DNA from: Crocinitomicaceae bacterium
GTDB taxonomy: Bacteria > Bacteroidota > Bacteroidia > Flavobacteriales_D > Crocinitomicaceae
Assembly: GCA_022447585.1 (NCBI GenBank)
Contig: JAKVAR010000006.1
Location: 372,001 to 436,000, forward strand
DNA length: 64,000 nt
Direction: 5' to 3'
The notes under the pieces: generated by a model
Told to the model about the DNA's origin: nothing
Seen by the model: only the letters and a program-made list of their open reading frames with translations
Databases searched by the model: none
Position numbers and translations under genes: made by a program
Shown: one piece after another, positions 2,578 to 14,456 of the stretch
Layout: each line of letters begins with the position of its first letter
How positions within the stretch are numbered: the first letter of the stretch is position 1

Positions 2578-3287
2578 CCTATAATTGAATTATATGTCCA
2601 ATAAATTCCAATGAAAATCGAAACAGTTCCTGCGATTCCATTCATCCACTTAAAAAGCGCTAGATTCTTTTCAATAAATCTACTCATCACAAAAATCAAA
2701 GTATAGCTATAAACGCCCATTGCCACTATTATTCCAATCGACTCTATACCTAATATGATGAGTGCATCGGCTGTTGAATCAGCACTTAAAATTAATGCGG
2801 ATGTAAGAGCACCTCCCGTTCCTGCCAAACCATGCAGCATCCCAACCCAAAAAGAACGTCGAATGGGATTCATTCCTATCTCTTCTCCGGTCTTGCCGTG
2901 CAAGTGAATTGGGTTTGAGTTCGTATGGTCATGTGCTTCGATTTTTTTGTGATCTTGCATCATTTCGTTGATCTTGTAATTTCTTCGAATCGCCACAATT
3001 CCTAACCAAATCATAATTGGCCCTATAGCTACTTCTGCCCAAAAGGAAATATCGTTAATGAATAACTTAGTTGATGATTTAAACAACAAGGCGATTCCTC
3101 CAAACAAGAGCAATGTTACTGAGTGTCCCAGTGCCCATTGCGAAGCTTGAATAACCGTTTTAAAAGACGTTTTTTCTTGTGTTATTGCTTTTTCCGATGC
3201 TAACACGGAAACCGCTGTTACATGATCTGGCTCAAACGAGTGCAATACCCCGGCCATTAATGGTCGTAATAAGCTAGCAGATGTCAT
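2574..3287 (-). CDS. NicO/HupE-like nickel-cobalt transporter, probable cobalt permease
   Basis: Polytopic membrane protein of 237 residues with about six hydrophobic segments. The first helix carries HSFEPDHVTAV, which resembles the HX4DH metal-binding signature of NiCoT/NicO transporters, and HGLAGTGGAL occurs in the second half. Between them is a cytosolic-looking loop rich in histidine (DHKKIEAHDHTNSNPIHLHG, about residues 110-130), as in RcnA-type proteins. It lies between cbiD (14-nt overlap) and the chelatase-like gene (4-nt overlap), so cobalt is the likely substrate and the riboswitch would control its supply. The direction of transport (uptake or efflux) cannot be read from sequence; uptake is inferred from the operon. 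Confidence 0.82.
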   Translation of the reverse strand: MTSASLLRPLMAGVLHSFEPDHVTAVSVLASEKAITQEKTSFKTVIQASQWALGHSVTLLLFGGIALLFKSSTKLFINDISFWAEVAIGPIMIWLGIVAIRRNYKINEMMQDHKKIEAHDHTNSNPIHLHGKTGEEIGMNPIRRSFWVGMLHGLAGTGGALTSALILSADSTADALIILGIESIGIIVAMGVYSYTLIFVMSRFIEKNLALFKWMNGIAGTVSIFIGIYWTYNSIIG

Positions 3288-4374
3288 TTGTTTTATATTT
3301 AATAAACTCCCCCGTCTTCGAAATCAGATAAAAATCCAATTTGACATGAGGAATAATGTTTTTTGTAACTTGATAACAATGTTTCAACAATGCGTTATAA
3401 AATGGCTCTGACTGCTCAAATGGAAATAGTTCTGGTAACCTCCCAGCTATGTTTAAACCTGTAATTTGTTTTGTTATTTCAACATTGTATCCTTCTTTTT
3501 CCGCCAATTTCCGGATAAATTCTTTATTCCAGCTTGAAATACAGCTGTGCGTGTCTATTCTGCCTTCCGCCAGTTTCGCTGCTTTTCCAAGCATGATTCC
3601 AATCGTTGCTTTTCGAATTTCTGAACTTGAAATCTTCTTGAGAGTTTCACCAATCCAATTGCCATAATGAATAAAAGACTGCTCTGTTAATTTTGGAAAC
3701 TTTTTTCGCAGGTACTTCTCACTTCTGGCTCCAGAGTTAATGACTAATTCGTCAATTCCATTGGCCACAGCCACATCAATTCCTTGTTCTATACTTGCGA
3801 TGTAAGATGATACTGAATAGGGTTTGACGATTCCTGAAGTTCCGAGGATCGAAAGTCCCCCCATTATTCCTACCCGTTCATTCAGAGTTCGTTTTGCTAA
3901 TTTTTCTCCATTAATAGCAAATATTTCAACCTGAACTCCACATTCTAAGTCAAAATCATGGATTAACTTCTGAATAGCATTAGTCATCATCTTGCGGGGT
4001 ACAGGATTTATTGCTGGTTCTCCAACCGCCAAATCCAATCCTGGCAGGGTAACTGTTCCGATTCCTTCTCCTCCAATAAAAATAATTCCCTTTTGATTTG
4101 TCAATTGAAGGCTACAACCAATTTCAGCTCCATTTGTAACATCGGGATCATCTCCTGCGTCCTTAATCACTGAACAAATAGCCCTGTTCTCATTGAACTC
4201 ACATGAATGAACAGCAATATTCAATATTTTATCTATCGGCAAATGTACATTCACATGCGAAAAATCCTTCTGATGAATGATTGCCATTAATGCCGCCTTG
4301 GCAGCAGCTGTTGCACACGTACCAGTTGTAAATCCATTTCTAAGCGGTCCATCGGGAACTTTTCTTAAACTCAT
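3274..4374 (-). CDS. cbiD: Cobalt-precorrin-5B (C1)-methyltransferase CbiD
   Basis: SAM-dependent methylation at C1 of the contracted corrin ring in the oxygen-independent branch. The N-terminus RNGFTTGTCATAAAKAA is the family signature and 366 residues is the normal length. GGLSILGTSGIVKPYS and the C-terminal DTHSC region also fit. CbiD does not belong to the canonical tetrapyrrole methylase superfamily that includes the other methylases of this cluster. Its presence together with CbiG and CbiX, without CobF or CobG, marks the pathway as the anaerobic type. A 30-nt gap separates it from cobK upstream, and it overlaps the transporter gene by 14 nt. Confidence 0.96.
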   Translation of the reverse strand: MSLRKVPDGPLRNGFTTGTCATAAAKAALMAIIHQKDFSHVNVHLPIDKILNIAVHSCEFNENRAICSVIKDAGDDPDVTNGAEIGCSLQLTNQKGIIFIGGEGIGTVTLPGLDLAVGEPAINPVPRKMMTNAIQKLIHDFDLECGVQVEIFAINGEKLAKRTLNERVGIMGGLSILGTSGIVKPYSVSSYIASIEQGIDVAVANGIDELVINSGARSEKYLRKKFPKLTEQSFIHYGNWIGETLKKISSSEIRKATIGIMLGKAAKLAEGRIDTHSCISSWNKEFIRKLAEKEGYNVEITKQITGLNIAGRLPELFPFEQSEPFYNALLKHCYQVTKNIIPHVKLDFYLISKTGEFIKYKTNDIC

Positions 4375-4404: not shown

Positions 4405-5157
4405 TTATTGTTTTAGGATTATTTTGAGTTCCTCTATGTTTTGGATTTGGATAAAAGAGGGCGGTGTTATTGGCTTTTTAAGAATGATGATACGAATCTC
4501 TTTTTTCATGGCGATTTGAACTTTTTCTTCTAATTTCCCTGTTGTTCCGCTCTCCTTGGTAACAATTACGTCAATCTTAAATCGATCAATCAATTCCTCT
4601 TCGTTTCCCACCAAATTTTCTGGTTTTTTCATAATTAACTGATTTATTGGAAAATCGCTTCTTTCTGCAATATCAAGAGAAGTTTGACGGTCTAAAATTC
4701 TAAAATAACAGGTATTATCCTTCCAAAAAGGCTTGAATCTTTCAATGGATTGAACACCAGTTAGTGCTAATAAGTTCTTCCCTTGAAAATCATTTACAAG
4801 CATGCGAATAATTTCTTTATAATCATTGGCATAGGTAACAAACTCTTGTTTAATGTGTCTCGAATATATACGTTCCAATCGGAGTACCCTTATATTTAAG
4901 ATTTTAGAAGCTTTATCGATTGTTTGATGTAATTCCTGCGCGAAGGGATGCGAGGCGTTAATCACATTTTTAATTCCAGCTGAGTTTATTAGCTCTTTTA
5001 ATCCAATAAAATCGAGTGCTCCGTTTCGCTCTTTACCAAACTCTCCTAATTCCGTTTCTACCTTTGTTTTTGTAGAATAAAGAAAGGGGAGTTGCATCTC
5101 ATTCAATAATGAAATTACGCGCTTTCCTTCTGTTGTTCCTCCGAATAAGAGTATCAT
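4405..5157 (-). CDS. cobK: (Cobalt-)precorrin-6A reductase CobK/CbiJ
   Basis: NAD(P)H-dependent reduction of the macrocycle of (cobalt-)precorrin-6A. The 250-residue protein starts MILLFGGTTEGKR, the nucleotide-binding loop typical of CobK/CbiJ; NASHPFAQ and VTKESGTTG are further family stretches. It follows the CbiG-CbiF gene after a 51-nt gap, the largest spacer within this operon, and precedes cbiD by 30 nt. The spacer shows no clear terminator or promoter, so co-transcription is likely. Which cofactor is used (NADH or NADPH) cannot be decided from the sequence. Confidence 0.93.
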   Translation of the reverse strand: MILLFGGTTEGKRVISLLNEMQLPFLYSTKTKVETELGEFGKERNGALDFIGLKELINSAGIKNVINASHPFAQELHQTIDKASKILNIRVLRLERIYSRHIKQEFVTYANDYKEIIRMLVNDFQGKNLLALTGVQSIERFKPFWKDNTCYFRILDRQTSLDIAERSDFPINQLIMKKPENLVGNEEELIDRFKIDVIVTKESGTTGKLEEKVQIAMKKEIRIIILKKPITPPSFIQIQNIEELKIILKQ

Positions 5158-5208: not shown

Positions 5209-7047
5209 CTAGTTCAAAGTAAACTTCTTTTTTGTTCTAAAGATATGTTTGTAATCAGGGCTGTAAAGCTGAGATCTATTCTTTCTCGCTCCGATTGCTT
5301 TTCCAACGACAATTAGAACGGTTCTTGTTTTCTTGCTGTCTTTAACTATTTGGGCAAGATTTTCCAGGGTTCCCTGATAGATTTCCTCATCTTTCCATGT
5401 AACCCTGTACAAAACAGCTACAGGGGTGGCGGCTTCGTAATGCTTTAACAATTGTTCTTGTACTTTTTTCGCAATTCCTGCGCTTAAGAAAATACACATT
5501 GTTGCATTCGATTTGGCCATTTGTTCCAGGTTTTCTTTCGGAGGCATTGGTGTTTTTCCTTCTCCTCTTGTTAAGAAAATAGATTGTACGACCTCTGGAA
5601 TTGTGAACTCAGACTTCAACGCTGCTGCTGCCGCGCTGTAAGCGGAGATACCTGGGATGATGAAATACTCCATCGCTAACTCTTCGAAAATACTTATTTG
5701 CTCTTGTATTGCCCCATACAAGGATGGATCACCGGATTGCAAACGAACTATCCTATTTCCCTTTTTATAGTGTTCAGTCATTAGGTCTACTTGCTCTTCC
5801 AATGTCATCATTGCTGAGTTTCTAACAATTGCGCCAGGCTTACACCATCCTGTCATTTCCTCTGGAATCAAACTTCCTGCATACAATACACATTCTGCTT
5901 CTTCTAATAACTCTTTTCCTCTCACGGAAATCAACAATGCGTCCCCAGGCCCGGCCCCCACAATTGCAACTGCTGCCGTTCTTTCAAATGCTTTATTGAG
6001 TGCTATTGCAAATGTAAATTTCTCACCATTCACTAAGCTTATTTTTTGCTTTTCAACTAGTAGTTTTGAATTGTTAGACATCAACATTGAAGCTGATTCT
6101 GAAACTCCATTTACTCCGATTTTAGCTTGAACCATTTCACTAGGATTTGGTACTTCTACTTTTTGAATTTCTTCTGAAGAATATGTTAAAAAAGGTACCT
6201 TATTTCTTTCTGCGAAATTTAAATATGCTTGCTGCTCTGCCTTGATATCAATTGACCCAAAAGTACAAATCGCTTCAAATGCAATGCCTTTCTCCATAAT
6301 TAGACTTTTCAAACGATCTTCGAAGAGTTCTCTGTCTAATTCTTTTGAACACCCAGAACCTAAATGTAAACACTTTGGATAAAATGCCCATGTTGGAATA
6401 TCTACATTAATTCTTTTATACGTAACAGCAATCAATAATTCAAATAATGTTGTATCAATATCTTCTAGGTTGTAAAAAAACTGAATAAAATCAGGCGCTG
6501 TTCTTTCCAAGAATTCAGTTCCTTCATCTCTAACCTCTAATAATACTGCTGTCGCTTTATTATTTACAAAAATGGAAATTAAATCATTTGACGTCCGGTT
6601 GGTCCAACTTGACCATGAAAATCGTTCAGCTAATAAATCTAAACTCCAGATATCTTGCAAATCGCTAGATGTTGAAATCACGGCGTATCCTCCTAACACA
6701 GAAGCGACTTTTTTTGCGAATTCATTTGCTCCACCTTGGTGTCCTCCAATTACTGACTGTGCATTCTGACCATGATCATCGACACATACGACTGCTGGAT
6801 CTTCTTGTTTTGATGTGAGCAGGGGGGCAATAATTCTTACGCAAATTCCCAGTGCACCGATAAAACAGAACCCATCTCTTTTTCCAAAATTTTCTGTAAC
6901 ATAATCCTGAACAGAATTAACAACTGAAACATTGTCGTTGTCTGATTTATGAGTTGTTATGACCAGCGATTTCGGATATTCGCGTTGCAGTAATAGTGCA
7001 TTTTTAATGCCCCGTTCCGTGAATGCTATGAATGTTACTTTTTTCAT
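5209..7047 (-). CDS. cbiGF: CbiG-CbiF fusion: cobalt-precorrin-5A hydrolase and (cobalt-)precorrin-4 C11-methyltransferase
   Basis: A 612-residue bifunctional protein. Residues 1 to about 345 are CbiG, which opens the delta-lactone ring and releases acetaldehyde after ring contraction; the conserved block FIGALGICVRIIAPLL and the IGGHQGGANEFA segment (about residues 60-115) identify it. Residues about 357-612 are a tetrapyrrole methylase with the SAM loop VGAGPGD, RLQSGDPSLYGA and IIPGISAYSAAAAAL, closest to CbiF/CobM (C11). CbiF makes precorrin-5A, which is the CbiG substrate, so the fusion joins consecutive steps. The start lies two bases after the cbiET stop. CbiG is diagnostic of the oxygen-independent route. 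Confidence 0.94.
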   Translation of the reverse strand: MKKVTFIAFTERGIKNALLLQREYPKSLVITTHKSDNDNVSVVNSVQDYVTENFGKRDGFCFIGALGICVRIIAPLLTSKQEDPAVVCVDDHGQNAQSVIGGHQGGANEFAKKVASVLGGYAVISTSSDLQDIWSLDLLAERFSWSSWTNRTSNDLISIFVNNKATAVLLEVRDEGTEFLERTAPDFIQFFYNLEDIDTTLFELLIAVTYKRINVDIPTWAFYPKCLHLGSGCSKELDRELFEDRLKSLIMEKGIAFEAICTFGSIDIKAEQQAYLNFAERNKVPFLTYSSEEIQKVEVPNPSEMVQAKIGVNGVSESASMLMSNNSKLLVEKQKISLVNGEKFTFAIALNKAFERTAAVAIVGAGPGDALLISVRGKELLEEAECVLYAGSLIPEEMTGWCKPGAIVRNSAMMTLEEQVDLMTEHYKKGNRIVRLQSGDPSLYGAIQEQISIFEELAMEYFIIPGISAYSAAAAALKSEFTIPEVVQSIFLTRGEGKTPMPPKENLEQMAKSNATMCIFLSAGIAKKVQEQLLKHYEAATPVAVLYRVTWKDEEIYQGTLENLAQIVKDSKKTRTVLIVVGKAIGARKNRSQLYSPDYKHIFRTKKKFTLN

Positions 7048-7049
7048 AC

Positions 7050-8246
7050 TTATTTTTTAGTTGCGGCCAATACATTGATCGCGTTGTATTCGTTTATATT
7101 GACAGTGAGAGGAGTATTCAATTGATACCCTAGTTTTTTTGTCATTTTGATAAACGTCTCTTTTGATGTTTTGGAAACAGTGTTCATTACCAATTTACCG
7201 TTGAGTACTAGGCTTGTATCGATGCGTTGAATCATCTCTTCCAGTCTATTTCCATGTCCACCAATGAATACTGCGTCTGGAGAACTTCCTTCGATTGTGT
7301 TTGAAAAAAAATCTCCTATTTTAACATGAATACCGGGAGTTGATGTTCTCTTTATATTCATTTGGATAATTTCTTCGCATTCTTGACGAATTTCAAAAGC
7401 AGTAACATCCAACTCTGGAAATTGCCTTTTACATTCAATTGAAACGGATGCCGTGCAGGCTCCAACGTCCCAAAAAACGGATTTATTTGATAACTCAAGC
7501 GCTTGTATTGCCAAAGCACGAAATGGTTTCTTCGTTATCATTCCCGGGCGCCCTTCTAGCGTTTGATAAAAATCATCTGAGAAACTCGTAAGATTTACTT
7601 TCTCTGCAGTTTTTCTTAAAATAACTGTATTCAAATCACCAAATGATTTTTTAGATGCTATCTTCAAATCTAAGTATGAGATCTTCTCATTAAATCCATC
7701 TAAATGTTCTCCGACAATCAATTCATAGTGATCCAATCCAACATCTAGCAAATGCTGTGCAATCAGGTTTGGCGAGTGCTTTTTATCAGTCAGGACTCCA
7801 ATTGTCCATTCATTGCGAATTAAAGCTATATCCAATCCTTTCCAACTCCTTCCGTGCAGTGTTACGTGCTTTATTTCGCTTGCATTAATTTGAGCTTTAT
7901 GACATAAACGATGAATACTGGAAAACCAAGGTGTTATAACCAATTGTGCTTCTGGAATTAAACGTTTCAAAGTATTTCCAAAACCAAAGAAAAATGGGTC
8001 TCCTGAAGTAAAGATTAATATCGGTTGATTCGAAGATTTATATTTATCCACGATCGTTTGCATTTTTCCACTTATTTCAATCCACGAATGTTCTTTAGGC
8101 AAAATTGACTTCACCAATTCGTAATGTCGCTTTCCACCAGAAAATATAGTGTGCTCGTTCAACAAGTCGCGACCAATTGGAAGCATAGCATCGACATGAT
8201 CTCCCATGCCTAATATGTTGATTATAAGCTTAGTTGAAATGTCCAC
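7050..8246 (-). CDS. cobL: (Cobalt-)precorrin-6B/6Y C5,15-methyltransferase, decarboxylating (CbiE-CbiT / CobL)
   Basis: Two fused SAM methylases of 398 residues. The N-terminal half (about 1-205) is CbiE, with LIFTSGDPFFFGFG as the tetrapyrrole-methylase GDP motif; it methylates C5. The C-terminal half (about 215-398) is CbiT, a Rossmann-type methylase that methylates C15 and decarboxylates the C12 acetate. The usual glycine-rich SAM motif of CbiT, roughly D-x-G-x-x-T-G-S, reads WDVGACTASVSIE here, so the glycine after the threonine is alanine. The downstream GGHGNRLEEM block is intact. The gene starts three bases after the bluB stop. Confidence 0.94.
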   Translation of the reverse strand: MDISTKLIINILGMGDHVDAMLPIGRDLLNEHTIFSGGKRHYELVKSILPKEHSWIEISGKMQTIVDKYKSSNQPILIFTSGDPFFFGFGNTLKRLIPEAQLVITPWFSSIHRLCHKAQINASEIKHVTLHGRSWKGLDIALIRNEWTIGVLTDKKHSPNLIAQHLLDVGLDHYELIVGEHLDGFNEKISYLDLKIASKKSFGDLNTVILRKTAEKVNLTSFSDDFYQTLEGRPGMITKKPFRALAIQALELSNKSVFWDVGACTASVSIECKRQFPELDVTAFEIRQECEEIIQMNIKRTSTPGIHVKIGDFFSNTIEGSSPDAVFIGGHGNRLEEMIQRIDTSLVLNGKLVMNTVSKTSKETFIKMTKKLGYQLNTPLTVNINEYNAINVLAATKK

Positions 8247-8249
8247 CTT

Positions 8250-8888
8250 CTAATATTTGTTTTTAAGGACTACCTCATTCTTATTTTTACGTTTTTCCCA
8301 GCTCAACCTTTCCAATTCAGGGTTTTCAAAAAAGTAATCAACATAACCCAAACAGAGGTAACCGATCAATTTTCGATCTTCTGGAGCATTCAATACTTTT
8401 TTCACCTTTTCGGGGTCAAGAATGCTTACCCAGCCCAATCCAATGTTTAAAGACCGAGCCATTAGCCACATATTTTGGATAGCGCAAACCACGCTGTATT
8501 CTCCTGCTTCTTCCATACTTGTTTGACCGAGCACAGGGTGGTCACTAGGTTTGTAAAAAACAGCAATGTTTACTGACGCTTCAGTTATGCCCTCTAGTTT
8601 TAATAAGGCATAAGCGTCAAGTTTTCCGTCCTTGAATAATGCCTTAGCCTTGTTATTTTCCTCAACGAATGTGTCTTTGACCTTTTTTTTCACTTCCTGA
8701 TCGTCTATAATAACAAACTCCCATGGTTGAGAAAAACCAACAGAAGGAGCATTCACTCCAGCAAATAAAATGTCATCGAGAGCCTCTTTAGGAATGGGGT
8801 CATCGATAAAACGATTTCCGCGCACATCTCTTCGATAGATAATAATATCCTTTAAGGTATCAACCTCTTTTTTGTTAAACTTTTTCAT
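8250..8888 (-). CDS. bluB: 5,6-dimethylbenzimidazole synthase BluB
   Basis: Flavin-destroying member of the nitroreductase fold that converts reduced FMN and O2 into 5,6-dimethylbenzimidazole, the lower ligand of B12. The 212-residue protein shows RRDVRGNRF near residue 18, the FMN-contacting NAPSVGFSQPWEF near residue 46, EAGEYSVVCAIQNMWLMAR and GLGWVSILDP, all typical of BluB and not of generic nitroreductases. It overlaps the CbiH-CbiC gene by four bases and is followed by cobL after three. Its oxygen requirement implies that the organism grows aerobically at least some of the time, although the corrin ring genes are of the oxygen-independent type. Confidence 0.95.
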   Translation of the reverse strand: MKKFNKKEVDTLKDIIIYRRDVRGNRFIDDPIPKEALDDILFAGVNAPSVGFSQPWEFVIIDDQEVKKKVKDTFVEENNKAKALFKDGKLDAYALLKLEGITEASVNIAVFYKPSDHPVLGQTSMEEAGEYSVVCAIQNMWLMARSLNIGLGWVSILDPEKVKKVLNAPEDRKLIGYLCLGYVDYFFENPELERLSWEKRKNKNEVVLKNKY

Positions 8889-10258
8889 TTGTAGTAATTG
8901 TCTGCTTCTTCTAGTGTAAACACAGCATTAACGATACTTGCGGCTAGGTTACTTCCTCCTTTATTGCCGCGAATAATTGCCCAGTCTGTTGTTTCTAACT
9001 GAGACAGTTGTTCCTTTGACTCAATAACATTAATGAAACCAACAGGGGCGCCAATAACTCCTGCGGGAGTGAAAGCTTCTTTTGTTCTAATTGATTCTGT
9101 AATTTCAAAAAGCGCTGTTGGAGCATTTCCCACAACGTATAATGCATTCGGATGTTTTTCAATCGCAATTTGCATTCCGGCCTGCGATCGTGTTAACCCT
9201 TTTTTATCAGCCACTAATGTTGTTTCATCGTCGTTTAAGTGACAGAAAATTTGATTTCCATATTTTTTAGAGAACGCCTTCGTAATTCCAGCTTTTACCA
9301 TTGTTACATCTGTCACAATATCTCCTCCTGCTCTCAAAAATTCGTTCCACTGCTCTAGTGCTTTATCGGAAACTTCAAGTAATTCTGTGTCATTTAGGTC
9401 TCCTGTAGTATGAATGACGCGTGTTAATGCCCACTTTTCAGCGACAGAACCTTTCAATGGCCTTACTTTTTCGGCCACTACGTTAAAGCTGGCTTGTTGA
9501 ATTTCTGAACCTGTTTCAGGCTTACGATTTAAATATCCTCGAGGAGTAATCAAATGTTGCTTGTATTGGAAGGTTTGAGAATTTCCAATAATTACCAAAC
9601 TGAACATATCTACCCAATCCGTGTTAAATTCACCTAATGTTGTTATGCGAATATTCTCTTCTTTTCTTGTAACCTGACGCACTATTGCAACTGGCGTACT
9701 AGGGTCCCTTTCTTCCAGGAATATTTTCTTTAATCGTCCCAGTTGCCAATGACGCTTAATACTTCTTGGATTATATAAGCTGGTTACAAAATCTCCCATT
9801 GCAGCTCCACGAATTCGCTTTTCGATTGAGTTCCATGGTGTCATTAAATCTGATAATGAGATACAACAGAAATCATGACCTAACGGCGCTCCTAACTTAC
9901 TTCCAGCTGCTAAGAAAGCAGAAATCCCAGGGAGTGTTTCTAATTCAATTTGACCCAACTCACGTTTTGCAACCATTTCATATACAATGGAGGCCATTGA
10001 ATAGATACTGGCATCGCCTGAACCAATAACCAATACATTTTTTCCCTTAAGGGCATGTTCAATCGCCACTTCTGCGCGTCCTTCCTCTTTTCCTAAAGGC
10101 ATTTCAATGCGTTCAACATCTGAAAGAAAGAACTCCTCTACAAATTGGAAATAATACGAATAGCCGATTACTACCTCCGCTATCGCCACAGCTTTATGTA
10201 CGATGGGTAAAATATATTGTTTATCTCCAGGACCAATACCTGCTACAGTAATCTTCAT
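8885..10258 (-). CDS. cbiHC: CbiH-CbiC fusion: precorrin-3B C17-methyltransferase and precorrin-8X methylmutase
   Basis: Bifunctional protein of 457 residues if started at the ATG at 10258. That start is chosen because it gives the conserved MKITVAGIGPGD N-terminus and a four-base ATGA overlap with cobI; a longer in-frame extension is possible but atypical. Residues 1 to about 245 are the ring-contracting C17 methylase (IGYSYYFQFV, VIGSGDASIYSMA, LPGISAFLAAGSKLGAPLGHDF). Residues about 270-457 are CbiC/CobH, which moves the methyl group from C11 to C12 (TVFTLEEAD-like end, VVGNAPTALFE, PAGVIGAPVGFINV). The joined steps are not consecutive in the pathway. Confidence 0.94.
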   Translation of the reverse strand: MKITVAGIGPGDKQYILPIVHKAVAIAEVVIGYSYYFQFVEEFFLSDVERIEMPLGKEEGRAEVAIEHALKGKNVLVIGSGDASIYSMASIVYEMVAKRELGQIELETLPGISAFLAAGSKLGAPLGHDFCCISLSDLMTPWNSIEKRIRGAAMGDFVTSLYNPRSIKRHWQLGRLKKIFLEERDPSTPVAIVRQVTRKEENIRITTLGEFNTDWVDMFSLVIIGNSQTFQYKQHLITPRGYLNRKPETGSEIQQASFNVVAEKVRPLKGSVAEKWALTRVIHTTGDLNDTELLEVSDKALEQWNEFLRAGGDIVTDVTMVKAGITKAFSKKYGNQIFCHLNDDETTLVADKKGLTRSQAGMQIAIEKHPNALYVVGNAPTALFEITESIRTKEAFTPAGVIGAPVGFINVIESKEQLSQLETTDWAIIRGNKGGSNLAASIVNAVFTLEEADNYYK

Positions 10259-10959
10259 TTTTGTAATATTATTAATGAGAAATATGGAATTGAACGTTCT
10301 TTTAAAACTTCCCAATCTGATGTGATAAATTCTTTTTTTGTTCCGAGTCTTTCGCAGTAAACAAATGAGCAGTTCGTTTCTTTAATGACCGACTCTATGT
10401 TATCGATTACTGATCTGATTTTCATCAACACAATAGTTTTGGAGTCCTTCATTGCTTCTTTAAGCTCGCTGGAGGATTGTACCCTTGGAATGATTGTCAT
10501 TTTTTCATTTTGTAATCCTAAAATGGTTCCAGAAATTGCTGCTCCAAGATTGTATGAGGTAATCCCAGGAATTACATCAATCTCAATATCAACGTTCTTG
10601 AAACGCTCAAGTAAATAGGAGAATGAACTATATGTGCTTGCATCTCCTTCGCTTACAACTGCTATTTTTAGGCCATTTTCCCAATCTCTCTTGATCAGTT
10701 CAAATGTTGTATCGTACACCGTATTTGCCTGTAATCGATCCAAATTCATTTCTAAATAGAAACCAATGCATTTTTTATTGTCTAGGTTATAATGAGCAAG
10801 GATTTCCTCAGAATAACTTACCTTGTTCCCTGTCGAAAAGAGCGATCCAGGAAAGTATACTTTATCTGCGTTTTTTAGTACATTTAATCCTTTGACTGTA
10901 ATCAAATCAGGATCTCCTGGCCCTAGTGAAACCGCCGTTATTCGTCCAGTGTTTGTCAT
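10255..10959 (-). CDS. cobI: (Cobalt-)precorrin-2 C20-methyltransferase CobI/CbiL
   Basis: First corrin-specific methylation, adding a methyl group at C20 of (cobalt-)precorrin-2. The 234-residue tetrapyrrole methylase has VSLGPGDPDLITVKG at the N-terminus, VSEGDASTYSSFSY as the substrate/SAM loop and IPGITSYNLGAA. The GDPDLITVKG string and the length favour CobI/CbiL over the other methylases of the operon. It overlaps cbiX by one base (TAATG) and the CbiH-CbiC gene by four. Whether the substrate contains cobalt depends on CbiX acting first, which is inferred from the neighbours. Confidence 0.93.
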   Translation of the reverse strand: MTNTGRITAVSLGPGDPDLITVKGLNVLKNADKVYFPGSLFSTGNKVSYSEEILAHYNLDNKKCIGFYLEMNLDRLQANTVYDTTFELIKRDWENGLKIAVVSEGDASTYSSFSYLLERFKNVDIEIDVIPGITSYNLGAAISGTILGLQNEKMTIIPRVQSSSELKEAMKDSKTIVLMKIRSVIDNIESVIKETNCSFVYCERLGTKKEFITSDWEVLKERSIPYFSLIILQK

Positions 10960-11891
10960 TAAATTCCTAACATTTTTTTGAATTTTCCTCCCAAACCTGG
11001 CTTTTCTCCTGGTTTTTCATCTTCTTCAAATAAAATTCCCTTCACATTTAAGTGATGTCCTACTTGTTCTTTCCCTTGTTCGTCTTCAAAACCAATAATT
11101 TGCTTTCTATATTTGCATATTTGACAGTTCATATTGGCTGTGCCATTGATAGCTTCTTCCAATCGCTCATCGAAAGCCTTAAGAATTAGTTCATCCGTTC
11201 CGAAGGAAGGCGTGTAAATGTATTCGTTTTCCGAATCTGTATTGAAACTATCGATGTTCTCATAAATTCGCTCCAATAATACTCCTGTAAAGAAAAAGAA
11301 AGGAATCACTAAGGTTCGTTTAAACCCTAGTTTATCTATCATAGGCAGCGCATCCTTTATGTTCGGGTATGCCGTGCCGCTGTAGGCAACAGTTGCAAAG
11401 CCAAAACCCATTCCATCCCAAAGCATACTGCATAATTTATGCACATCTGAATTGGCATCCGGATCTGTTGTTCCGCGCCCAATCACCACAAGACAGGTCT
11501 CTCTTCGGTCTATTGGTGCATATTCAGATTCCTTTTGTTCTAATATTTTCTTAGAGAGATCTAAAATGAAAGTATTTACACCTAGATGCTTTCCCATTTT
11601 AATTGTAAGGTCTTCATAATATCCTTGAATCGTATTTAACTCATATGGAATATCATTCTTCGCATGAGATCCCGCGAACAAAATTACGGGAAGGGCATAA
11701 ATCTCTCGAACCCCCTTTTGATATAAACGCTCCACAGAAGCTTCATATAAAGGATGATTAAATTCTAAGAAGCCATAGTCTACTTCATAATCTGAGTAAC
11801 GGTTTTTTAGTATCGCAACCAATTCCTTAAAAGATTCGGTTCCAGATTTCCTTCTCGATCCATGTCCGCAAAGTAAAATTCCTTTTTTCAT
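10959..11891 (-). CDS. cbiX: Sirohydrochlorin cobaltochelatase CbiX (long form)
   Basis: Inserts Co2+ into sirohydrochlorin, committing it to the cobalt-early route. The 310-residue two-domain form begins MKKGILLCGHGSRR with the catalytic-type HGSR motif, and FAGSHAKNDIP near residue 74 supplies a second conserved histidine. The second half repeats the fold (VVIGRGTTDPDAN). Near residue 255 the MNCQIC motif resembles the M-x-C-x-x-C iron-sulfur site reported in long CbiX proteins, but the histidine-rich stretch of some homologues is absent. It overlaps the SDR-SUMT gene by four bases and cobI by one. Ferrochelatase is less likely given the neighbours. Confidence 0.92.
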   Translation of the reverse strand: MKKGILLCGHGSRRKSGTESFKELVAILKNRYSDYEVDYGFLEFNHPLYEASVERLYQKGVREIYALPVILFAGSHAKNDIPYELNTIQGYYEDLTIKMGKHLGVNTFILDLSKKILEQKESEYAPIDRRETCLVVIGRGTTDPDANSDVHKLCSMLWDGMGFGFATVAYSGTAYPNIKDALPMIDKLGFKRTLVIPFFFFTGVLLERIYENIDSFNTDSENEYIYTPSFGTDELILKAFDERLEEAINGTANMNCQICKYRKQIIGFEDEQGKEQVGHHLNVKGILFEEDEKPGEKPGLGGKFKKMLGI

Positions 11892-13429
11892 TTTTTTTCA
11901 ATTGGTTCAACTCCAACGATAAATACTACAGGCATTTCCAATGGACTATTTTTTAAATCATTTCTAATCTCACTTAGCGATGAAGCCAACAGCTTTTCAT
12001 TTGTTCTGGATACATTCGACACTGCGCTAATAGGAATGGAAGGATCATTCGTTACGTTAATCAATTTAGGAATGAGTTTATCCAAACTTTTCAGTCCCAT
12101 GTATATCGCCAGTGAATTACCGTCCTTCAGCAATTCAGCAATTCCTTTCAATTGGTCAAATGTATAATCTGCAGTATGAGCAGTACAAATCAATAATGAG
12201 CTTGACTTACGTCGTTCTGTAACCGGCAAACTAAATCTGTTGGCCGCTGCTAGACTAGCAGAAATACCAGGAACCACTTCAAAAGGTAAGCCTTTATCCG
12301 ATAGATAACGAGCTTCTTCTGCGGCTCTTCCAAAAATATAAGGATCGCCTGATTTCAAGCGTACGACTTTTTTTCCTTGTTTATAGTTTTCTTCCATCAA
12401 CAGATTGATCTTATGTTGACGTTCGTCCTGATTTGACTTATCCCCGTATTTTCTTCCTACATAGACTCTTTCTGCGCCAGCTGCTATACTCATAATCTCT
12501 TCAGAAACTAGGTTGTCGTGCAATAGCATCTCCGCTTCTTTTAAAGCGTTAATCGCATGAACTGTTAATAAAGATGTAGCTCCTGGCCCGGCACCTACAA
12601 TTGATATTACGGGCATTTTATCTGCTTCGAAGATTTTCTCAGGGTTGGAGAATTCGTATTCGATACCTAAGAGCTCTTTCGATTTACGATTACTTACCGT
12701 TTTCCATTTTTGTTCTTCGTCTTCATCAAAAGAAGGCAATGGAAGGTTTAACGCTTTTGCGGCATTTTCATAAAAGGATCGGCGTTCTGGATGCTGATCT
12801 GAGCAACCATTAAAGACTTCACCATAACATTCTTTTTCTATCACCAGCTGCAACAGTTTAACAGCATCTTGTTGATGAATTAAGTTTACCGGAACCGAAG
12901 GGTTCTTTAAGGACTTTCTACCCGCTAAAAATCTCCCCGGATGTCTTTTGGGTCCAATTAATCCAGCCATTCGAACAACAGTTAAATTATCCCCGAAATA
13001 GTTTCGAAGAATTTCTTCTGCCGCATGAACTTCAATTCCTGATCTTCTTTGAGGGTTCGTTTCGCTCTCCTCGGTTACTTCTTTATTCTCATTTCCGTAT
13101 ACGGAAGTTGAACTTACAAAGATTACCTGTTTATCAGCAGGCGTTTGATCACAAATATGCTGCATAATCGTTCCATATGCTTCTTTGCGCTTACCTGGAG
13201 GGAAGTTGAGAACAAGTGTGTTGGAGCCTTCGATAATCGTCTCCCAATCACCAATAATGCCAGCCTCTTCTAAACGGATTTTTCCCACATAAAATGGATG
13301 ACGAGATAACCTCATCAACTTCTCATCAGATGTTGTAGTGCCTTTTACGTCATATCCATTTTGGGCTAACGAAATCCCCAAGGGTTCTCCTAGCCATCCT
13401 AAACCGATAATGGATATTTGTTTTTTCAT
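11888..13429 (-). CDS. Fusion of an extended short-chain dehydrogenase (SDR) domain with uroporphyrinogen-III C-methyltransferase
   Basis: One open frame of 513 residues. Residues 1-270 are an NAD(P)-dependent epimerase/SDR-type Rossmann domain: GLGWLGEPLG nucleotide loop, FVSSTSVYG (Ser/Tyr region), RMAGLIGPKRHPGRFL and IHQQDAVKLL, closest in style to YeeZ-like proteins. From M272 the chain is a complete SUMT (CobA): SIVGAGPG, RLKSGDPYIFGRA, VVPGISASLAAANRFSLPVT. SUMT makes precorrin-2 from uroporphyrinogen III. No separate Met8/CysG-type precorrin-2 dehydrogenase is in view, so the SDR part might act on precorrin-2, but that is only a hypothesis. It starts five bases after the upstream stop and overlaps cbiX. 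Confidence 0.9.
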   Translation of the reverse strand: MKKQISIIGLGWLGEPLGISLAQNGYDVKGTTTSDEKLMRLSRHPFYVGKIRLEEAGIIGDWETIIEGSNTLVLNFPPGKRKEAYGTIMQHICDQTPADKQVIFVSSTSVYGNENKEVTEESETNPQRRSGIEVHAAEEILRNYFGDNLTVVRMAGLIGPKRHPGRFLAGRKSLKNPSVPVNLIHQQDAVKLLQLVIEKECYGEVFNGCSDQHPERRSFYENAAKALNLPLPSFDEDEEQKWKTVSNRKSKELLGIEYEFSNPEKIFEADKMPVISIVGAGPGATSLLTVHAINALKEAEMLLHDNLVSEEIMSIAAGAERVYVGRKYGDKSNQDERQHKINLLMEENYKQGKKVVRLKSGDPYIFGRAAEEARYLSDKGLPFEVVPGISASLAAANRFSLPVTERRKSSSLLICTAHTADYTFDQLKGIAELLKDGNSLAIYMGLKSLDKLIPKLINVTNDPSIPISAVSNVSRTNEKLLASSLSEIRNDLKNSPLEMPVVFIVGVEPIEKK

Positions 13430-13434
13430 TTATT

Positions 13435-14235
13435 TTAAGCTAACTCTGTTATTCGTATTCCTCCCAATTGAATTTCTTCACAATACTTCCAAAACCTATC
13501 ACATTTAAATTCCATAGACGCGACTTTTTCTCCTATTTTGTTTTTAAAAATGATTCCTTTATTTTCTGTGTTTTCCTCAGTATAATAGAAAGTTCCTCGA
13601 ATCTTCAATCTTTGCTTTTCTGTTTTGTCGTTTGCTCCTACTGCCCCTATTAACAATGTTTCAGTGTTCCCTTCGAAATTCAATTCAATTGTAAACTCAT
13701 CTGTATAATCAATTGTCTTCAAACTAGACATTGGATGTTTTTCTCCAATTCGATTTGTAAATATTCCTTCCACTTGGCTATCACACCACTTAATAAACAA
13801 GGCATAAAGATACTGATCTGAACTCAACCCTTTGGTTATCCATCCTTTATTTCCGCTTGGTAACTCCTTGTGCTCAAAAGGCTTTATAAATGAATTAGAT
13901 CTCTCGTTTTCAGAGCATACTTTAGTCGACCCTTCTTCAAACAAAAGTGAATCAACTAATGGTTGATTGTTTTTGACGTGTGATTTTATGATGTTAACAC
14001 CAGTTTTTGAGTTTACATTTTTATACCAGTAGTTTCCGGGCTGAACAATCCAGGTTGGGGCATCCTCACAGCGACCATTGCAACGAGTCTTTATCGTATG
14101 TGTATTCTCCCAGTTTCCCGAATTCCTTATATAAGCTCGGGTATCTCTTGATGTTTGTTCTGCACGAGCCTTTCGACATGAGCCACCATCACAGGTATAA
14201 AATGTATGTTTTACTTTGGCTAAATTCTTTCCCAT
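13435..14235 (-). CDS. Thioredoxin-like [2Fe-2S] ferredoxin domain with uncharacterised C-terminal domain
   Basis: Predicted 266-residue protein starting at the ATG at 14235, two bases after the stop of the small exported gene; a 13-residue upstream extension would overlap that gene and is disfavoured. Residues about 5-65 contain HTFYTCDGGSCRKAR and later TRCNGRCEDAPT, that is C-x4-C and C-x3-C, the cysteine pattern of thioredoxin-fold [2Fe-2S] ferredoxins. The remaining 200 residues are mostly beta-type and hydrophilic, with five further cysteines, and match no family I recognise. It is the second gene after the B12 riboswitch, so a redox role in corrin synthesis or in cofactor assembly is inferred, not shown. 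Confidence 0.78.
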   Translation of the reverse strand: MGKNLAKVKHTFYTCDGGSCRKARAEQTSRDTRAYIRNSGNWENTHTIKTRCNGRCEDAPTWIVQPGNYWYKNVNSKTGVNIIKSHVKNNQPLVDSLLFEEGSTKVCSENERSNSFIKPFEHKELPSGNKGWITKGLSSDQYLYALFIKWCDSQVEGIFTNRIGEKHPMSSLKTIDYTDEFTIELNFEGNTETLLIGAVGANDKTEKQRLKIRGTFYYTEENTENKGIIFKNKIGEKVASMEFKCDRFWKYCEEIQLGGIRITELA

Positions 14236-14237
14236 AG

Positions 14238-14456
14238 TTAAAAAGAATAGATGATTGACTCTTTCATGAAACATGATTTTCCAGACGTAGAATGAAAATC
14301 ATGATTGACCATTGTTTCATTAGATAAGCTCGTCGTATGATAGAGAGCTACTTCTATCGATGTTTTATTTAAGAAACTTTGAATGTAGATAGCCGATTGA
14401 TTGTTAGCATAAATTGCGATAAAGGCTAATGTAAATATGATAAACACATTCTTCAT
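14238..14456 (-). CDS. Small exported protein of unknown function, first gene of the B12 operon
   Basis: Predicted 72-residue protein. The first 22 residues (MKNVFIIFTLAFIAIYANNQ and following) look like a signal peptide or single membrane anchor; the remainder is polar, with a single cysteine and three histidines. It lies directly downstream of the cobalamin riboswitch leader and ends two bases before the ferredoxin start, which argues that it is a real, co-transcribed gene. I recognise no family. It could be a periplasmic cobalt- or corrinoid-handling peptide, but nothing in the sequence proves this. Confidence 0.6.
   Translation of the reverse strand: MKNVFIIFTLAFIAIYANNQSAIYIQSFLNKTSIEVALYHTTSLSNETMVNHDFHSTSGKSCFMKESIIYSF

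Follow-up and report, generated by a model that had tools for sequence, protein, structure and literature searches.

The 64,000-nucleotide stretch of Crocinitomicaceae DNA analyzed here (the window) carries an anaerobic-type B12 cluster transcribed throughout from the minus strand, in the order CobQ, CobC, CobD, an AAA_28 ATPase, a ferredoxin-like gene, a fusion gene, CbiX, CbiL, CbiHC, a BluB-like gene, CbiET, CbiGF, CbiJ, and CbiD. We named CobQ, CobC, CobD, and the BluB-like gene by eye and the other cluster genes mostly by profile. The fusion gene (positions 11888 to 13429; 513 amino acids) joins an SDR-fold domain to a uroporphyrinogen-III C-methyltransferase (SUMT). Its end overlaps by 4 bases the gene for the cobaltochelatase CbiX (10959 to 11891), whose motif MNCQIC at amino acid 254 fits MXCXXC, reportedly named as an iron-sulfur motif in the title of one study. 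Further downstream lie the C20-methyltransferase CbiL/CobI (10255 to 10959; NCBIfam profile), a CbiH-CbiC fusion (8885 to 10315; profiles), the BluB-like nitroreductase (8250 to 8888), a CbiE-CbiT fusion (7050 to 8246; profile), a CbiG-CbiF fusion (5209 to 7047; profiles), the precorrin-6A reductase CbiJ (4405 to 5157; Pfam profile), and CbiD (3274 to 4374; profiles). The cluster continues past the window edge with CbiA, a CobO-type gene, a CobW-type GTPase, CobN, CobT, and CobS, all assigned by eye except CobN, which shares 56% identity with a PF02514 protein from the sampled genome G186 (G000 denotes the window's own genome and other G numbers denote sampled genomes).

The gene immediately upstream of the fusion (13435 to 14274, minus strand) has a weak 2Fe-2S-ferredoxin-like match (21.2 bits against a cut-off of 150), and its product has no Pfam match. 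A relative stands directly before the SDR gene on contig C40 of the same assembly and in G023, G186, and Fluviicola sp. NORP8, but not in Reichenbachiella versicolor. The product is a possible electron carrier for the B12 pathway.

A single reading frame joins two domains

The first-pass annotation had described one continuous frame across M272 that places an SDR-type domain ahead of SUMT, and both points hold: the open reading frame starts with ATG and contains no internal stop over its 513 codons, and each half matches the expected profiles. The C-terminal part (amino acids 272 to 513; 11888 to 12616) matched TIGR01469 (cobA_cysG_Cterm) at 223 bits against a cut-off of 185 over amino acids 275 to 506 in an NCBIfam profile search, NF004790 at 217 bits against 198, and TP_methylase at 1.8e-42; by TIGR01469, the protein has the C-terminal SUMT of the CysG architecture. 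The N-terminal part (amino acids 1 to 270; 12620 to 13429) is, by profile and predicted structure, an extended-SDR-fold domain, proposed here as a candidate precorrin-2 dehydrogenase. It matched Pfam Epimerase (PF01370) at 25.4 bits against a cut-off of 20.9, best over amino acids 98 to 168, and six in-cluster relatives that we scanned scored 19.8 to 33.7, on both sides of that cut-off. The family of the known dehydrogenases was absent from both lists of matches: PF13241 is not among the three Pfam families matching the full protein (up to E 0.001), nor is TIGR01470 among the 15 NCBIfam models matching amino acids 1 to 270 (up to E 1).

A general arrangement as two separate genes, the second starting unnoticed at M272, is unlikely. 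Within the 40 codons that precede the GAGPG motif of the methyltransferase, the C40 fusion has no ATG, GTG, or TTG, and the G023 fusion has a GTG at codon 248 as its sole possible start. The window fusion does have an ATG at codon 272 (12614 to 12616), which could act as an extra internal start in this copy.

The fusion recurs in B12 clusters and is under purifying selection

We sought the two-domain architecture in Bacteroidota and found it again on C40, in G023, in the Fluviicola sp. NORP8 MAG, and in R. versicolor, giving at least five clusters with the window's own. These counts rest on samples of hundreds of Bacteroidota genomes, among which related genomes are not independent. In the family sample, 2 of 100 genomes had a full-length match: G000, with the window and C40 copies, and G023. 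The phylum sample (395 genomes) contains the fusion in at least one genome (G000), a lower bound because at most three candidates were scored per genome; in G186, the same two parts are adjacent genes. A wider contig scan with two SDR peptides as queries returned at least two more fusions, those of NORP8 (85% identity) and R. versicolor (53%), and in each the genes from CbiX to CbiD come next in unchanged order. The C40 fusion is 56% identical to that of the window. Because the fusion is kept in five clusters, a chance or artifactual reading frame is ruled out. Both halves are under purifying selection: between the window and NORP8, dN is 0.10 for the SDR half, with a saturated dS of 2.6, and 0.07 for the SUMT half, for which dS is not computable; between C40 and G023, dN and dS are 0.20 and 2.3 for the SDR half and 0.09 and 2.7 for the SUMT half.

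In all five clusters, the fusion precedes CbiX. The SDR is a separate gene in G186 and G185, where it stands directly before SUMT and CbiX, and in G104, where the order is SDR-BluB-SUMT-CbiX; a CbiX relative is present in all eight SDR-bearing clusters. The SDR half could instead serve another corrin step (for example, ring or cobalt reduction) as a reductase that uses NAD(P)H, or as a dehydrogenase, and be fused to SUMT for co-production only. Its location in a corrin operon is compatible with this role, as are the many reductases that share the fold and the G104 arrangement, in which BluB and not SUMT adjoins the SDR. However, SUMT is the partner in seven of the eight clusters (fused in five and a direct neighbor in two), and the cluster already encodes the pathway's known ring reductase, CbiJ; we consider a role in another corrin step improbable.

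Contig C40 (L033; 15.8 kb) gives the window's assembly another B12 cluster, one that has diverged and lies nearer to G023 than to the window, with 72 to 79% DNA identity to the G023 cluster. Given this resemblance and the 6.08% contamination of the assembly (99.98% complete), C40 may be foreign; it may be a contaminant or a second copy.

The N-terminal half has a predicted extended-SDR fold

We built an AlphaFold2 model from 14 sequences (mean pLDDT, 72.7). The SDR half was modeled with means of 80 to 97 in 22 of its 27 ten-residue blocks, and part of the SUMT half fell below 50. In VIA-align comparisons, the solved structure closest to modeled amino acids 1 to 276 was 3ius (Z 27.2; 2.6 Å over 260 residues), followed by 3gpi (Z 26.5) and then by epimerases and other SDRs; the best 50 entries were SDR-superfamily chains, as judged by title or by eye, covering approximately amino acids 1 to 276 at Z 23.5 to 27.2. 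Foldseek also placed 3ius first. The model therefore predicts an extended-SDR fold for the N-terminal half, in line with the first-pass annotation. The nearest solved sequences were the same two, 3ius (4.5e-8; "uncharacterized conserved protein") and 3gpi (0.0012). Although these offer the best likeness in both sequence and fold, they are single-domain chains of 273 to 286 residues that lack SUMT and whose function is unknown or putative. CysG structures also appeared in the Foldseek list, at TMq 0.23 to 0.26 across almost the entire model, which we did not read as a likeness between the dehydrogenase parts.

The glycine-rich dinucleotide-binding motif GLGWLG is intact at amino acids 9 to 14 (13388 to 13405, minus strand), as placed by alignment, and its residues G9, G11, W12, L13, and G14 are invariant in all 14 aligned proteins. 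SDRs usually use a catalytic Tyr-x-x-x-Lys pair; by eye, alignments of the window protein show no such pair, and RRSGIEVHAAEE stands at the expected place. NmrA-like sensors are likewise not known to have the pair, and the SDR half might accordingly be imagined as a catalytically dead domain that senses NAD(H) or channels substrate and so regulates SUMT. We regard this as very unlikely: the SDR is a separate protein in G186, G185, and G104, and by eye the pair is also missing from its standalone relatives, so that its loss is not linked to fusion. Nor need the missing pair prevent precorrin-2 oxidation, since SirC is said, in the accessible text of PMC7018833, to proceed without a nearby base and to rely on NAD+ alone. 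A comparison of alignments gave no convincing residues that separate in-cluster SDRs from other SDRs.

No Met8/CysG-type dehydrogenase is found in the genome

The first-pass annotation had seen no Met8/CysG-type dehydrogenase in the cluster and had named a Met8 elsewhere in the genome as the finding that would speak against its proposal. We looked for one in the window's genome (99.98% complete) and found none; searched with TIGR01470 and PF13241, the genome as assembled extends the absence seen in the cluster. TIGR01470 had no match, and the two PF13241 matches look by eye like S-adenosylhomocysteinase and another Rossmann protein. G104 and G185 likewise have no TIGR01470 match. Across these three genomes, the best PF13241 match reaches at most 29.9 bits, whereas the Met8-type proteins in G023 and G709 score 86 bits; the strongest matches of G104 and G185 resemble other proteins (by eye), and weaker ones there score 23 to 25 bits. 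This PF13241 back-up covers G000, G104, and G185 only, and the absence of TIGR01470 by itself can mislead, as two control genomes, Synechococcus elongatus and Bacteroides ihuae, have no TIGR01470 match despite a CbiD match.

TIGR01470 scored above its cut-off in 18 of 24 CbiD genomes (23 of the phylum sample plus G023). Of the six genomes without it, G000, G104, and G185 carry an SDR in the B12 cluster, joined to SUMT in G000, beside it in G185, and nearby in G104. The only SUMT matches of G328 and G445 are methyltransferase domains within CbiGF or CbiHC, and these two genomes therefore probably make no precorrin-2 themselves. The exception is G336: besides CbiD, it has a SUMT-like gene that lies in a locus of the uptake type, with a TonB receptor and FecC/FecE-type genes as neighbors (by eye), and it matches neither the SDR nor TIGR01470. 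A class sample (395 genomes) added little power, as only G709 was new among its six CbiD genomes. Met8 is also present in four of the seven genomes with an in-cluster SDR, including the closest relative, Fluviicola NORP8, and two genomes with SDR-free B12 clusters, G252 and G709, have a Met8-type gene elsewhere.

Met8 and siroheme-type reductases (PF01077) agree in presence or absence in all eight genomes tested, both being present in G023, G186, G252, G493, and G494 and both absent from G000, G104, and G185; within this set, Met8 thus follows siroheme. In G023, G186, G493, and G494, Met8 comes with a second SUMT beside a siroheme-type reductase. The family f18 has Met8 in all 15 of its CbiD genomes. 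The four f18 clusters that we read (G204, G397, G200, and G119) contain a CbiK-like chelatase (by eye) and no SDR that we could see; in ten others, which together with these four cover every f18 CbiD genome but G219, the best SDR is on a different contig or at a distance of over 80 kb from the SUMT of the cluster. The same pattern appears in the Chlorobium gene list (cysG, sirC, cbiK) in the accessible part of PMC8620254, which describes an anaerobic B12 cluster of the form cysG, sirC, cbiK, cbiL, cbiHC, and so on. That cluster shares the CbiHC, CbiET, and CbiFG fusions with the window's but uses CbiK and sirC where the window has CbiX and the SDR.

SDRs appear to have been recruited into B12 clusters twice

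In a tree of 84 SDRs, in which several rows have long branches, the five fused SDR domains form one clade, with a support of only 89/62, and the SDRs that genus g12 carries as standalone genes are placed next to it (96/93). The in-cluster SDRs of G104 and G185 form a clade beside standalone f18 SDRs, and the G186 SDR pairs with that of G410 (100/100). A single origin of all eight in-cluster SDRs was rejected (p-AU 2.2e-61), as was a clade of the fused and G104/G185 SDRs (p-AU 5.7e-35), a subgroup chosen after the tree had been seen. Uniting the fused SDRs with those of G186 and G410 gave a p of 0.010, which rose to 0.27 with the g12 standalone SDRs added; we therefore claim two origins and not three. 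Together, these sequence comparisons argue firmly for two independent recruitments of an SDR into B12 clusters.

G410 and G186 belong to one genus (L084 versus L082 and L154). G186 has the whole B12 cluster; G410 keeps the SDR, near the same flavohemoglobin- and galE-type neighbors (by eye), and has no CbiD match.

Six g12 standalone SDRs are 44 to 49% identical to the window SDR, and SUMT matches are missing from all eight g12 genomes that we sampled, so the older function of the family lies elsewhere and the family is not tied to the precorrin-2 step. A separate standalone SDR is also present in G000, G023, G104, G185, and G493; up to E 1e-3, G186 showed none, and G494 showed just a match of 55 residues. 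The SDR half may have a general, non-B12 role and may owe its place in the cluster to chance or co-expression, with precorrin-2 oxidized by air or by Met8 or with cobalt inserted late via CobN. Such a role would fit the wide distribution of standalone family members, the SDR of the CbiD-less G410, the lack of B12-specific residues, and the CobN and CobW-type genes of the same cluster. It fits poorly with two independent entries into SUMT/CbiX clusters, with a fusion that persists to 53% identity, and with the standalone paralogue of the window genome (35% identity), which is available for any housekeeping role. We judge a general role to be unlikely, if deserving of serious consideration.

CobN, a CobW-type GTPase, and a ChlI/ChlD-like protein occur together in the window's CbiX-type (early cobalt) cluster, at 907 to 2577 and upstream (L227:3607-8453), and G252 and G186 contain similar sets. 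CobN therefore does not track the SDR. Late cobalt insertion is the usual association of all three, and CobW is given as a mark of it in the accessible text of PMC10206600. These three genes may indicate late insertion here; as that route would not need sirohydrochlorin, they count against a precorrin-2 dehydrogenase.

Standalone SDRs adjoin a gene that by eye resembles heme A synthase (CtaA) in G000, G062, G037, and G493 (L047, L043, L051, and L226), and G121 has heme-type genes 3 to 7 kb from its standalone SDR. A tblastn search with six heme-gene references gave no further case among the loci searched, a good number of them no longer than about 3 kb.

Discussion

Precorrin-2 is converted to sirohydrochlorin by NAD+-dependent dehydrogenation. 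As no enzyme of the usual kind was found in this genome, the dinucleotide-binding domain that precedes SUMT in the fusion is a natural candidate for this step, and our best explanation of the locus is that the SDR half oxidizes precorrin-2 to sirohydrochlorin for CbiX as a nonhomologous counterpart of the CysG dehydrogenase, an explanation for which we see an even balance of confidence and doubt. In this scheme, the SUMT half would convert uroporphyrinogen III to precorrin-2, the SDR half would bind NAD(P)+ and remove two electrons and two protons to yield sirohydrochlorin, and CbiX, encoded by the next gene, would load the product with cobalt; sirohydrochlorin is given as the CbiX substrate in the accessible text of PMC7242693. 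We infer the use of NAD(P), precorrin-2 as the substrate, and the direction of the reaction from this context.

The first-pass suggestion of a nonhomologous precorrin-2 dehydrogenase accordingly stands in part. Sequence evidence favors it through the SUMT fusion, the position before CbiX, the genome without a detected Met8, and the second recruitment in Met8-less genomes; the close relatives in SUMT-less genomes and the Met8 genes in four of seven SDR genomes weigh against it. So does the chemistry, as precorrin-2 is described as very air sensitive (accessible text of PMC7018833) and may therefore oxidize without an enzyme. The wider proposition is that an SDR-fold enzyme unrelated to CysG, Met8, and SirC serves as a precorrin-2 dehydrogenase, that CbiX-type B12 operons of Bacteroidota acquired it from a housekeeping SDR on two or more occasions, and that its fusion to SUMT in one lineage recreated the CysG architecture with a different dehydrogenase; we find this plausible, with the scales tipped slightly toward doubt.

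The whole protein would then be a CysG-like bifunctional enzyme of independent origin. CysG (the siroheme synthase of Salmonella and E. coli) likewise combines an N-terminal NAD-binding dehydrogenase-type domain with a C-terminal SUMT, and its SUMT half is homologous to ours (NF007922, 221 bits over amino acids 213 to 506, below the cut-off of 400). In contrast, the CysG dehydrogenase belongs to the PF13241/TIGR01470 type and has a helical domain, whereas the window protein has a predicted extended-SDR fold matching neither profile; the CysG gene lies with sulfite reductase, and the fusion lies in a B12 cluster. The SirC and Met8 precorrin-2 dehydrogenases catalyze the reaction proposed for the SDR half, which has no profile match to their family. 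In the accessible text of PMC7242693 and PMC7018833, CysG, Met8, and SirC are the enzymes named for precorrin-2 dehydrogenation, a single family for the reaction with which the siroheme and anaerobic B12 branches begin, and we recognized no SDR-type precorrin-2 dehydrogenase in the literature searched, which included few subscription papers. If the proposal is correct, a second, unrelated enzyme would represent a clear nonhomologous replacement and a convergent domain fusion and could supply a missing step in the B12 pathways predicted from Met8-less genomes. It would also give a candidate function to a widespread Bacteroidota SDR family.

A SUMT-like gene of a distinct type stands next to a TonB-receptor-like gene (by eye) in G336 (L217:8103-8846), G104 (L219:6996-7796), and G119 (L155:12229-13131), with FecC/FecE-type transporter genes beside it in G336 and G104. 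This arrangement raises the question of whether the methyltransferase is tied to corrinoid or heme uptake.
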